A DNA stretch of 40,921 nucleotides from a bacterium (GCA_030429975.1 JAUIGB010000008.1:1-40921); one strand, 5' to 3'. Positions 31,654 to 34,428 are shown, counted from the stretch's first letter. Notes: generated by a model not told the origin, from the letters alone. A program made the numbers and translations.

Positions 31654-31721
31654 CACCTCGTTGCGAATCATTACCCTATAGGATATACTTCATATGCCCG
31701 CTCCTGGGCGCAAGTTGTTCA

Positions 31722-31790
31722 TAGTTACCACACGCAGATGTGGCGGTCTGCGTGAACGCAAATTATGAGTAGACGCGCAAGCGCGCAACG
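31722..31790 (+). other. tRNA-Leu-associated element, copy A
   Basis: This resembles the 5' half of the tRNA-Leu gene that follows it: GCAGATGTGGCGG at 31734-31746 and GTAGACGCGC ending at 31778. Between them an insert folds as TGCG-TGAA-CGCA (31749-31760), with outer pairing GTCT/AGAC. A second hairpin GCGC-AAGC-GCGC follows (31775-31786). A homologous element lies before the second tRNA-Leu gene. It sits upstream of the tRNA promoter. It may be a degraded partial duplication or a structured RNA. Confidence 0.5.
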
Positions 31791-31798
31791 GTCCGCAA

Positions 31799-31828
31799 TT
31801 GACAGTAAACTACGGGCATACATACAAT
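31799..31828 (+). promoter_or_regulatory. Promoter of tRNA-Leu(CAG)
   Basis: TTGACA (31799-31804), an 18-bp spacer and TACAAT (31823-31828) stand 11 bases before the first base of the tRNA. Confidence 0.75.
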
Positions 31829-31839
31829 CTATTACATAT

Positions 31840-31927
31840 GCGGATGTGGCGGAATTGGTAGACGCGCTAGCTTCAGGTGCTAGTGTTCCTTGGGAACATG
31901 GAGGTTCAAGTCCTCTCATCCGCACCA
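31840..31927 (+). tRNA. tRNA-Leu (anticodon CAG)
   Basis: An 88-base class II tRNA. The acceptor arms are GCGGATG and CATCCGC, with discriminator A and encoded CCA. The D arm is GGAATTGGTAGACGC. The anticodon stem CTAGC/GCTAG carries loop TTCAGGT (anticodon CAG). A long variable arm (TGTTCCTTGGGAACA) and GGTTCAAGTCC T-arm complete it. TTTTTT follows directly and should end transcription. Confidence 0.97.
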
Positions 31928-31950
31928 GTTTTTTGAATTTATAAAACATC

Positions 31951-32526
31951 ATGAATAGCCCTATAGATATATTTCCCTTTGCGCTCCAGGTTTCGAAAAA
32001 GATTGTCAACGATGACCCGCTTTTGGCATTTCGTGACATGAATAAGCCCTTTTTGCATGATATAAGAGACGAATTCAATGATTATGTTATACGAAAGTGC
32101 GACTTGAGTATTGATGGAATCACTGAAATGGGCGAGCTGATAGAATCAGGTTTTGACGCCACGGTTACAGTTGTAACGGAATCATTAAAACAATCGAATC
32201 GTATTATTAGAAAAAATAAAGCTTTGAGAATAGCGACCAGTGACGGAACCGTAGAGACTCTGGGTACTATTGCGCGACAAGAACCAGGTATGGCCGTGAG
32301 GTTAATTAAACAAGCAACGCTGCCGTCATCACCATACGTGGTTAACTATCAAGACGAATACATCTCGTTTCCGCACCCAAATTACCAAGGTGTTCATCCT
32401 ACTAGGCGCTGTCCCGCCGTCATAGCAAGAGGATCAGAAACAATTTCTCCTGCTTTTAGCAACTTCGTAAAATGGAGCGGAGCACTAGCTGTTCATAGTA
32501 TGTATAAGCGTCGCAGAGTTAACTAG
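31951..32526 (+). CDS. Hypothetical soluble protein
   Basis: The 191-residue protein begins MNSPIDIFPFALQVSKKIVNDDPLLAFRDMNKPFLHDIRDEF and ends with a basic KRRRVN. It has a helical middle (DATVTVVTESLKQSNRIIRKNKALR) and a Pro/His-rich stretch (YQDEYISFPHPNYQGVHPTRRCPA). No membrane helix, signal peptide or known domain is recognised. TATAAA (31940-31945) is 5 bases before the ATG, just after the tRNA T-tract. It overlaps the convergent oxidase gene by 8 bp at the stops. Confidence 0.68.
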   Translation: MNSPIDIFPFALQVSKKIVNDDPLLAFRDMNKPFLHDIRDEFNDYVIRKCDLSIDGITEMGELIESGFDATVTVVTESLKQSNRIIRKNKALRIATSDGTVETLGTIARQEPGMAVRLIKQATLPSSPYVVNYQDEYISFPHPNYQGVHPTRRCPAVIARGSETISPAFSNFVKWSGALAVHSMYKRRRVN

Positions 32527-34153
32527 AAGCACCGTAGACCGCGAAATCACTACCATCATAGTCACTGCGCAACCAACTGTTCAGTTGCTTGCGATCGGTA
32601 TCCTTTTTGACACCTGTATTCATGATTCCTTGGGGATCAAGTACCTTTTTGACGCCTTCGTATAGTTCTTTGACATTGTCTTCTAGCACGCCATAGGCGT
32701 ATGGCGCCTTGAGACGGCCCTCACCCGCTTCGCCAATTAAGTGTCCGCCGTGTTCGGTAACTGCCAACGACCAATCTTCCAGGAGTTTGAATATCTTTTG
32801 CCTGTCGGTGGCTTTGTCAAAATCCAGCATTGGATATGCGTAATACACATCCTGAAACGCATGTCCCGATAGAGGTAAATCGACTCCACGATTTTTAGCT
32901 ATAGCTGTTACTTCCTTTGCAAAATCTTCGAATCTTTCAGGTGGTACAAATGCACCGTTCAAGAAACCAGGGGCGCATATATTTTTCTGATCAGAAAACA
33001 TCACCACGGCAGGTGCATGTAGCAATTCTTTTAGCGTAGCGATTTTGTCTTCGTCGCTTTCAAGAACCAGGTAAGGTGGTAGTTTAGAAAAATGCTTTGC
33101 TATTTTTTTGGCTATTTTTTTCTTGGTTCGTCCACTTTTATCATCGAATTCCAAATATACAACCGCTGCTACTTCGCCTTGATCTAAAGCATCGTTATAG
33201 AAGTGATATTGATTGCCCTGGGCCATGGCTGTTTCAAAAAGCTTGGCATCTATTAGCTCCATGACAGATGGATCAAACTCCCTGAGTACATCCAAACCAT
33301 CCCGCATAGATTCGTAATCCGTAAATGCAATAGCTCCTACCAGCGGCTTTTGAGGCAAGACTTCCGCCTTCATTATCACTTCCGAAACAATACCTAATGT
33401 TCCCTGACTACCAATAAACAAAGGTGCCAAATCCATTGATCCGTTACGCTGTTTGACATCGACCAAGTTATATCCGGCGTTATCACGCACATCAATCGCT
33501 AATGTATCCAGCAGTTCGTCATTGTCTGTTATTAGATTATCTATGCCTCGATATATTTCGCCTTCAAATGTTTGCAGACCTTTTCTGCGAGCAACTTCCC
33601 GTTTGCTTAATCGCCCCGTCTGTATGACGTCGCCATTAGAGAGCACGACTTCTAGCTGATATACCCAGGCTGATATCGATCCATATTTACCGGACAGTAT
33701 ACCACTAGCGTTGTTAGCTATGGCGCCACCCAATGTGCTATATGCTTGAGAACCCGGAAACGCCGGGATGTATAAACCGTATAGTTTTAGAGCTTCATTC
33801 AGTGATTTGAATGTTATGCCGGGTTGAACACGTACCAATTTTTGCTTTTGATCGACTTCGAATATCGTGTCCATGTGCGCCTGCGTGTCGACGATAATTC
33901 CCTCGCCAATAGCCGCGCCCGTTTGGTCCGTGCCACCGCCCCTTGGAGTCAAGGGTAGTTTGTGGCCCTTTTCTGCCAGTTGCCATGCAAATCTGGCAGT
34001 TTTTCGTATATCACTAGTAGATCTAGGAAACGCCACCATCTCGGGAGTAAGCGTCAAGACACTTCCGTCAGTAGAAAATCGACGACGCACGTTGTCATTG
34101 TTCGTGACCTCACCCTGCAGGTGTCTATTCAAGTATTCTGAAACCTTACTCAT
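32519..34153 (-). CDS. FAD-linked oxidase (glycolate oxidase GlcD / D-lactate dehydrogenase type)
   Basis: The 544-residue flavoprotein has a PCMH-type FAD domain: VAFPRSTSDIRKTARFAWQLAEKG, TPRGGGTDQTGAAIGEGIIVDTQ, RVQPGITFKSLNEAL and FPGSQAYSTLGGAIANNASGILSGKYGSI. A C-terminal FAD-oxidase cap domain ends with HGGHLIGEAGEGRLKAPYAYG and KVLDPQGIMNTG. It oxidises a 2-hydroxy acid such as D-lactate or glycolate. No iron-sulfur partner (GlcF) or permease is nearby, so the electron acceptor is unknown. An upstream in-frame start at 34195 would run into the tRNA-side region; MSKVSEYLN at 34153 fits the family. Confidence 0.9.
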   Translation of the reverse strand: MSKVSEYLNRHLQGEVTNNDNVRRRFSTDGSVLTLTPEMVAFPRSTSDIRKTARFAWQLAEKGHKLPLTPRGGGTDQTGAAIGEGIIVDTQAHMDTIFEVDQKQKLVRVQPGITFKSLNEALKLYGLYIPAFPGSQAYSTLGGAIANNASGILSGKYGSISAWVYQLEVVLSNGDVIQTGRLSKREVARRKGLQTFEGEIYRGIDNLITDNDELLDTLAIDVRDNAGYNLVDVKQRNGSMDLAPLFIGSQGTLGIVSEVIMKAEVLPQKPLVGAIAFTDYESMRDGLDVLREFDPSVMELIDAKLFETAMAQGNQYHFYNDALDQGEVAAVVYLEFDDKSGRTKKKIAKKIAKHFSKLPPYLVLESDEDKIATLKELLHAPAVVMFSDQKNICAPGFLNGAFVPPERFEDFAKEVTAIAKNRGVDLPLSGHAFQDVYYAYPMLDFDKATDRQKIFKLLEDWSLAVTEHGGHLIGEAGEGRLKAPYAYGVLEDNVKELYEGVKKVLDPQGIMNTGVKKDTDRKQLNSWLRSDYDGSDFAVYGASS

Positions 34154-34228
34154 TATCCCTAATATAATAGCACAAGCACCATGGTCGTAAAACACTAGCC
34201 GTGTAGAGTAAATTATGCTATGATATTT

Positions 34229-34300
34229 CAGTTATCTACCTGCGGATGCGGTGGTCTGCGTGAATGCAATCATTTGTAGACACGCTGCGTGGCAGCAGTA
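34229..34300 (+). other. tRNA-Leu-associated element, copy B
   Basis: The second copy of the element seen before tRNA-Leu(CAG). GCGGATGCGGTGG (34242-34254) and GTAGACACGC (34276-34285) copy the 5' half of the following tRNA. They flank an insert that folds as TGCG-TGAA-TGCA (34257-34268). The change relative to copy A turns a G-C pair into G-U. The next hairpin is GCTGC-GTG-GCAGC (34284-34296), different in sequence from copy A but at the same place. An extended -10 (TGCTATGAT, about 34216-34224) precedes it. Confidence 0.5.
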
Positions 34301-34343
34301 GACGTCCGGAACGACGACAAACTAGCGCTTTTACATTATCTAC

Positions 34344-34428
34344 GCGGATGTGGTGGAATTGGTAGACACGCATGCCTTAGGAGCATGTGCCGCAAGGCGT
34401 GAAGGTTCAAGTCCTTTCATCCGCACCA
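34344..34428 (+). tRNA. tRNA-Leu (anticodon UAG)
   Basis: An 85-base class II tRNA. The acceptor arms are GCGGATG and CATCCGC, with A discriminator and encoded CCA. The anticodon stem CATGC/GCATG carries loop CTTAGGA (anticodon TAG). The variable arm is TGCCGCAAGGCGT and the T-arm AAGGTTCAAGTCCTT. Its acceptor stem and most D-arm bases equal those of the CAG isoacceptor at 31.8 kb. Confidence 0.97.

Follow-up and report, generated by a model that had tools for sequence, protein, structure and literature searches.

A structured copy of the tRNA 5′ half in the leaders of tRNA genes of Candidatus Saccharibacteria

The two tRNA-Leu genes in the window, a 40,921-nucleotide stretch of DNA from a bacterial genome of 1.02 Mb (98.9% complete), are each preceded by an element that copies the 5′ half of the downstream tRNA and carries a hairpin in place of the D-loop. 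Named relatives with the same element are Candidatus Saccharibacteria. A preliminary description of the window had reported such a tRNA-like element in front of each tRNA-Leu and had taken it for a maintained unit. We find that both are real, and conservation across genera, covarying hairpins and the way in which each copy (hereafter, the mimic) tracks its own tRNA bear out the maintenance of the unit. We tentatively propose, with a confidence that stops just short of an even chance, that the element is a conserved structured pre-tRNA leader, born by tandem duplication, which acts in cis on the folding and processing of the tRNA.

Element A (31734-31812) lies 5′ of tRNA-Leu(CAG) (31840-31927) and element B (34242-34324) lies 5′ of tRNA-Leu(UAG) (34344-34428), all on the plus strand, and both tRNA genes were called by ARAGORN and by Rfam (RF00005). 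The parts follow each other in the same order in the two elements: a copy of tRNA nucleotides 1-13, a hairpin insert (TCTGCGTGAAYGCAA...), a copy of the 3′ strand of the D-stem (GTAGACGCGC or GTAGACACGC) and a fold-back. The motif that the two had been said to share, GGTCTGCGTGAAYGCAA, occurs in exactly two copies in the window, with no others even at three mismatches; shuffled sequences give an expectation of 0.15. The tRNA-matching parts of element A are GCAGATGTGGCGG and GTAGACGCGC, where tRNA-Leu(CAG) itself has GCGGATGTGGCGG...GTAGACGCGC, and those of element B are GCGGATGCGGTGG and GTAGACACGC, where tRNA-Leu(UAG) has GCGGATGTGGTGG...GTAGACACGC. Each copy matches its own tRNA at variable places, as had been noticed, with GTAGACGCGC in A and GTAGACACGC in B. 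The two tRNA genes are separated by a 558-aa ORF on the minus strand (32519-34195), which is FAD-linked oxidase/dehydrogenase-like by sequence only and for which no link to the elements was seen.

The first part of mimic A (31734-31746) comprises the acceptor 5′ strand, U8 and the 5′ strand of the D-stem, and 12/13 positions are identical to the downstream tRNA. It is followed by the insert in place of the D-loop (31747-31768), with the hairpin TGCG-TGAA-CGCA (31749-31760) and AATTATGA, and by the second part of the mimic with the fold-back GCGCGC (31769-31786), which is complementary to GTAGACGCGC. A second conserved hairpin with its tail, GGTC-CGCAATT-GACAGTAAACTA, occupies positions 31790-31812. 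It conforms to an extra hairpin, read by eye as N-GUC-NNNNNN-GAC-N′ with the tail NNAAACUA, that is present in Leu leaders of many genera and has a covarying outer pair. Mimic B likewise agrees with nucleotides 1-13 of tRNA-Leu(UAG) at 12/13 positions (34242-34254); its insert (34255-34275) contains the hairpin TGCG-TGAA-TGCA, with one G-U pair, and ATCATTT, and its second part (GTAGACACGC) with the fold-back (34276-34296) can form the alternative hairpin GCTGC-GTG-GCAGC. The second conserved motif of B, CGTCCGGAACGACGACAAACTA (34303-34324), was recognized by inspection and is also found in the orthologous Leu(UAG) leaders of two genomes (G008 and G009). Both units have kept the insert hairpin and a second hairpin (GCGC in A, GCTGC in B) despite sequence change. 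Folded alone, element B is more stable than shuffled sequences (z -2.96), and element A is no more stable than its shuffles (z -0.15). Because the single-sequence fold of A is at the level of shuffled sequences, the case rests on the comparison between genomes, which is strong.

A covariance model of the element, R1, was run on 198 genomes from 61 genera of one Saccharibacteria family, and matched in 64 of the genomes and 28 of the genera. Both inserts of the window belong to it. Among 102 distinct fetched matches, 95 have a called tRNA downstream, five have a tRNA that is cut by a contig end or by N, and two, both weak and judged false, lie outside tRNA leaders. The downstream tRNAs are Leu with all five anticodons (59), Ser-GCT (17), Phe (11), Thr-GGT (4), Lys (2) and Val (2). 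A first scan of 61 relatives located the motif before tRNAs for Leu(UAA), Val and Lys, always embedded in a duplicate of the 5′ half of the tRNA in question. Comparison of all leaders with their own tRNAs in five genomes gave 25 mimics for 183 tRNAs, and the mimics of Met, His, Gln, Asn and Tyr in these genomes are without the R1 hairpin. The preliminary description had noted the element at tRNA-Leu only; at least 10 other tRNA species carry it as well.

Wider searches placed the element mainly in this family. The 14-base core had 13 matches in 295 family genomes, two of which (L055 and L063) lie away from tRNAs and one of which (L042/L053) ends with its contig. When 84,980 named genomes were scanned for the exact pattern, 15 loci were returned: all five in Saccharibacteria/Patescibacteria are located 86-99 nt upstream of a tRNA, and none of the ten in other groups is upstream of one. 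In a class-wide search the sole match outside the family was in G051, a member of another family, and mimics were also found in two genomes of other families. Two contigs of G051 (L241 and L304) and one of G027 (L042) end within the element 5′ of tRNA-Leu, probably because tandem units break short-read assemblies there. A virus source was rejected, as the core pattern was unmatched in viral contigs. Within genus g2, no R1 match was present in the listed genomes or in G006, and G010 has at most one weak mimic among 30; this patchy distribution indicates that the element is dispensable. A genome of another class of the phylum, G449, has its own kind: seven of its 43 tRNA leaders (L326, L327, L335, L339, L340 and L389) contain a truncated tRNA 5′ part, often that of an isoacceptor, ending in a common tail, YCCYTCACYYTTT, just 5′ of the intact tRNA. 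This is a parallel and different kind of leader mimic. At L280, the tRNA-Leu(CAA) gene of G042 is preceded by a mimic of another tRNA-Leu and then by a terminator-like hairpin with a T-run, an arrangement that is possibly an attenuator.

From 5′ to 3′, the unit consists of a promoter, a short leader, the mimic acceptor strand, the D-stem 5′ strand, the hairpin block (consensus CU-NNCGU-GAA-ACGNN-AARUNAUC), the D-stem 3′ strand, a turn, the fold-back (which in many cases runs on into an antisense to the D-arm), in Leu units the second hairpin, a spacer and the tRNA. The mimic acceptor strand is identical to the tRNA in young copies and decayed in others, and many mimics have lost the acceptor part and retain only the D-arm and hairpin. 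A conserved acceptor 3′ strand within the mimic was considered and rejected, because it is found in some Leu elements (GTCCG) and is not general. The D-stem 3′ strand of the mimic often runs on into the anticodon stem, before a turn of 2-4 nt and the complementary fold-back. Full Leu and Phe units measure about 102 nt, and short units (52-64 nt) are without the second hairpin. At L035 (G000:C23:40825-40909), a tRNA-like gene that ARAGORN assigns to Pro(AGG) bears a hairpin, GTTCCCAGCAGGGAC, inserted in the D-loop of the gene itself, and its anticodon loop is short; it is possibly a degenerate tRNA-Gly.

Across 96 distinct sequences, 98.7% of the cells of the hairpin stem are paired and seven cells are changed on both sides, and none of 500 shuffles had a covariation score as high. 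A control slid by +2 has a similar score, but only 53% of its cells are paired. The compensatory changes in the helix make it well supported that the element is a conserved structured RNA. They also led us to reject a DNA-binding palindrome, as the stem covaries and the loop varies by one base (TGAA versus TGAAA), unlike a protein site. RNAalifold gave little signal for the full Leu leader, because the spacers of Leu leaders fail to align.

The place of the hairpin can be taken by other palindromes. The Leu(CAA) leader of G000 (L032) has TCCGCCAGCTGGCGGA there and the Asn leader (L001) a close variant, the palindrome that replaces the GAA hairpin in these two mimics being TCCGCCAGCTGGCGGA or TCCGCCAGCCGGCGGA; L197 and L200 have GTTCTTGC-GAA-GCAAGAC and GTCACTGC-GAA-GCAGTGC, respectively. 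Such replacement would suit a tiny selfish palindrome that inserts in D-loops and can be tolerated only by a tRNA copy that is redundant and lies upstream, much like the Rickettsia palindromic elements, which are short palindromes inserted in genes, RNA genes included. However, mimic, fold-back and antisense are here cognate to each tRNA, and a cognate fold-back and antisense are beyond what a generic element can carry. The R1 hairpin is, moreover, almost confined to tRNA leaders, the two weak matches elsewhere apart, and the core pattern had no match in viral contigs. Beyond these two, R1 gave no copies at unrelated sites, which speaks against a mobile palindromic element, and we consider a selfish palindrome very improbable.

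The mimics are specific for the tRNA that they precede. At a score of at least 30, 21/173 leaders matched their cognate tRNA, versus 19/5890 non-cognate comparisons within the same genome, an enrichment of about 40-fold. The tRNA 3′ end had no match in any of the 173 leaders; only the 5′ half is copied. A duplicate functional tRNA gene was rejected on these grounds, the T-arm and 3′ strand being absent, and because ARAGORN and RF00005 do not call the mimics. As the partner of a mimic, its own tRNA beats the same isoacceptor of other species in 456 versus 114 comparisons, and the summed mimic-tRNA identity is 851 versus 799.5 +/- 7.6 after shuffling. In G131, where the Met acceptor reads GGTAGTG instead of GGCAGCG, the mimic has the matching change. 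Gene conversion, which had been suggested for the window, may contribute to this identity.

A simple promoter score, applied to sequence only, found promoter-like sites 5′ of the mimic in 59% of cases, nearly the frequency before ordinary tRNAs, compared with 25% for shuffled mimic-free leaders. Between the mimic and the tRNA such sites occur in 14%, versus 13% in shuffled sequence and 58% for mimic-free tRNAs, and a proximal promoter at this position was rejected because its frequency equals the shuffled background. In unit A, a promoter-like site (TTGCGA, 17 nt, TATACT; 31661-31689, plus strand) has the top score 5′ of the mimic at L161, which is the same locus; it is a consensus match only. 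Unit B has a -10-like TATGAT (34219-34224, plus strand), recognized by reading and position, without a clear -35. Because promoters sit upstream of the mimic and not between mimic and tRNA, the mimic is probably transcribed as a pre-tRNA leader of about 110 nt. The mimic takes the usual start place of a tRNA, the real tRNA is shifted by about 100 nt, and one transcript should carry both.

Many leaders also contain segments antisense to the tRNA D-arm, of up to 16-18 nt. Antisense to the whole D-arm is present for Ser (CCGTCCCCTTCAGCC), Lys (GTGCTCTAACCAGCTG), Leu (GTCTACCAATTCCACC), Val (GCTCTAACCAGC), Met (CGCTCTAACCAACTGA) and His (17/18). At a score of at least 12, antisense runs were found in 12/86 cognate versus 4/4034 non-cognate comparisons. 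The Met antisense CGCTCTAACCAACTG is invariant in four genomes of three genera while the leader has diverged; among 287 genomes of the phylum, its exact pattern occurs in G000 and G131 only.

For antisense-bearing precursors, the predicted minimum-energy fold differs from that of leader and tRNA folded apart. In this predicted switched fold, the 3′ acceptor strand of the tRNA is taken up by the acceptor strand of the mimic. The T-arm and, in most cases, the anticodon arm are predicted to form, and between the D-arm and the anticodon arm the antisense makes a long helix with the real 5′ half. Relative to the separate parts, the predicted gain is 9-18 kcal/mol (Met -14 to -17, His -18, Lys -11, Thr -9, Leu at L169 -9.9 kcal/mol), and the switched fold is also predicted for one Gln. 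Over all 111 cases, the median stabilization is -1.4 kcal/mol for cognate versus -1.3 kcal/mol for non-cognate combinations, so the switched fold fails to explain every member. For Met, Lys, Ser and others, both of two exclusive pairings are conserved in the predictions, which is not so for most Leu elements. The switched fold is predicted mainly for antisense-bearing members, and not clearly for either element of the window. A different mode of action, or loss of the acceptor strand that would compete, may apply to many of the Leu elements.

We hypothesize that the mimic and the real 5′ half are rivals for two partners, the 3′ acceptor strand of the tRNA and the antisense in the leader. In one state, the mimic would pair with the antisense and the tRNA would fold normally; in the other, the real 5′ half would be held by the antisense and the mimic strand would occupy the 3′ acceptor strand, so that RNase P would meet the wrong 5′ end and the yield of tRNA would fall. 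The near-identity of mimic and real half would bring the two states close in energy, and the need to keep them close would explain the co-evolution of mimic and tRNA. A trans-acting factor could tip the balance by binding to the hairpin, which, being common to otherwise different tRNAs, would be a natural place for it. The likely points of action in this model are tRNA folding and the choice of the RNase P site. Pairing of a leader with the 3′ RCCA, by just two base pairs, lowers the kcat/Km of RNase P (PMC9433436). We speculate further, and with more doubt than belief, that the pre-tRNA is bistable, the 5′-half copy in the leader rivalling the real one for the 3′ half, and that maturation is switched in cis, probably through a factor binding the D-loop hairpin, which would constitute a new class of tRNA gene regulation. 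The element may be a decoy or a processing signal, as the preliminary description suggested; the folding evidence favours a cis effect on folding and 5′ processing.

How the units arise is suggested by the young copies, which also duplicate the flanking leader: 38 nt are repeated exactly in L057, and L147 contains exact tandem units of 102 nt. Upstream of tRNA-Phe in G103 there are two exact 102-nt copies, and tandem pairs are also present in G104, G079, G129, G131 and G132. Direct repeats spanning leader sequence show, as far as sequence comparison can, an origin by duplication; the leader and the tRNA 5′ half would have been duplicated in tandem, the upstream copy then being fixed as a tRNA-mimic domain. 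The turn from sense to antisense suggests template switching, a process of local copying that gives rise to perfect inverted repeats and to compensatory changes (PMC8794818). Of the earlier idea of a partial-duplication relic, the duplication stands; the relic is unsupported, because conservation is seen in the hairpin, the D-stem and the antisense but not in the spacers.

The same repeats could be read as a functionless mutational by-product of slippage and template switching at tRNA hairpins, with likeness preserved by gene conversion or repeated duplication. A sense copy followed by a tight antisense fold-back at variable positions resembles template switching (PMC8794818), and units flanked by direct repeats duplicate easily. 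Yet the hairpin CUGCGUGAAACGCAAAUNAU is templated by no tRNA and nevertheless recurs, with compensatory changes, in Leu, Ser, Phe, Thr, Lys and Val leaders of 28 genera; the Met antisense has stayed constant amid diverging surroundings; and neutral direct repeats about 100 bp apart should delete readily. Duplication and template switching explain the birth and multiplication of the unit, not the conservation of hairpin and antisense, and we regard a pure by-product as unlikely.

A leader freed by RNase P could also act in trans, as a small RNA that titrates a tRNA-binding protein or a nuclease in the manner of a sponge or decoy. The fragment would be structured and about 100 nt long, and tandem units, of which G051 has at least two with contigs breaking inside the array, would raise its dose. 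There is precedent in spacers released from tRNA transcripts that act as sponge RNAs, such as E. coli 3′ETS-leuZ. Such a role leaves unexplained why the mimic matches, and is antisense to, the tRNA of the same transcript, and it seems to us improbable.

The cis-acting leader proposed here shares features with known systems and differs from each. A T-box riboswitch is a leader RNA that base-pairs with a specific tRNA and offers two exclusive folds, as is predicted for some of the present leaders, but it lies upstream of amino-acid genes and reads the anticodon and the NCCA end, whereas here the leader is that of the tRNA gene, whose 5′ half it copies. Rfam searches (E<=5) of six element-bearing loci returned no T-box and nothing relevant to the element but tRNA, and a tRNA gene instead of an amino-acid or aminoacyl-tRNA synthetase mRNA lies downstream in 100/102 matches; a T-box was rejected accordingly. 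A preQ1-like reading (hairpin and AAACUA tail) was also rejected, having no Rfam support and a loop without partner. In the E. coli thrS leader and viral tRNA-like structures, RNA domains imitate a folded tRNA for a protein, whereas the element copies the 5′ half only, has a hairpin at the D-loop and adjoins the copied tRNA. Leader anti-determinants of RNase P similarly slow 5′ processing by pairing with the 3′ end, but involve 2-3 nt beside the cleavage site and not a duplicated 5′ half with antisense (PMC9433436). Template-switch hairpins are alike in their inverted repeats and supply no hairpin conserved between unrelated tRNAs and genera (PMC8794818). Interrupted, permuted and split tRNA genes (PMC3978253, PMC4390854) have separated tRNA halves, whereas here a complete tRNA follows an extra 5′ half. 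We found no published description of the element in the open-access literature, where one could have been missed, and as far as found it appears to fit no Rfam family or paper.

Bacterial tRNA leaders are usually regarded as short throw-away sequence. In the five genomes of these ultra-small epibionts, about one in seven tRNA genes appears to be preceded by a structured copy of its 5′ half that is transcribed and evolves in step with the tRNA. A leader that is kept across genera, co-evolves with its tRNA and is unmatched in Rfam may represent an unknown control of tRNA folding and maturation. If it governs folding or the choice made by RNase P, the element would be a self-referential way of setting the levels of single tRNAs; if it is mutational, it would point to tRNA genes as places where RNA structure arises very actively.
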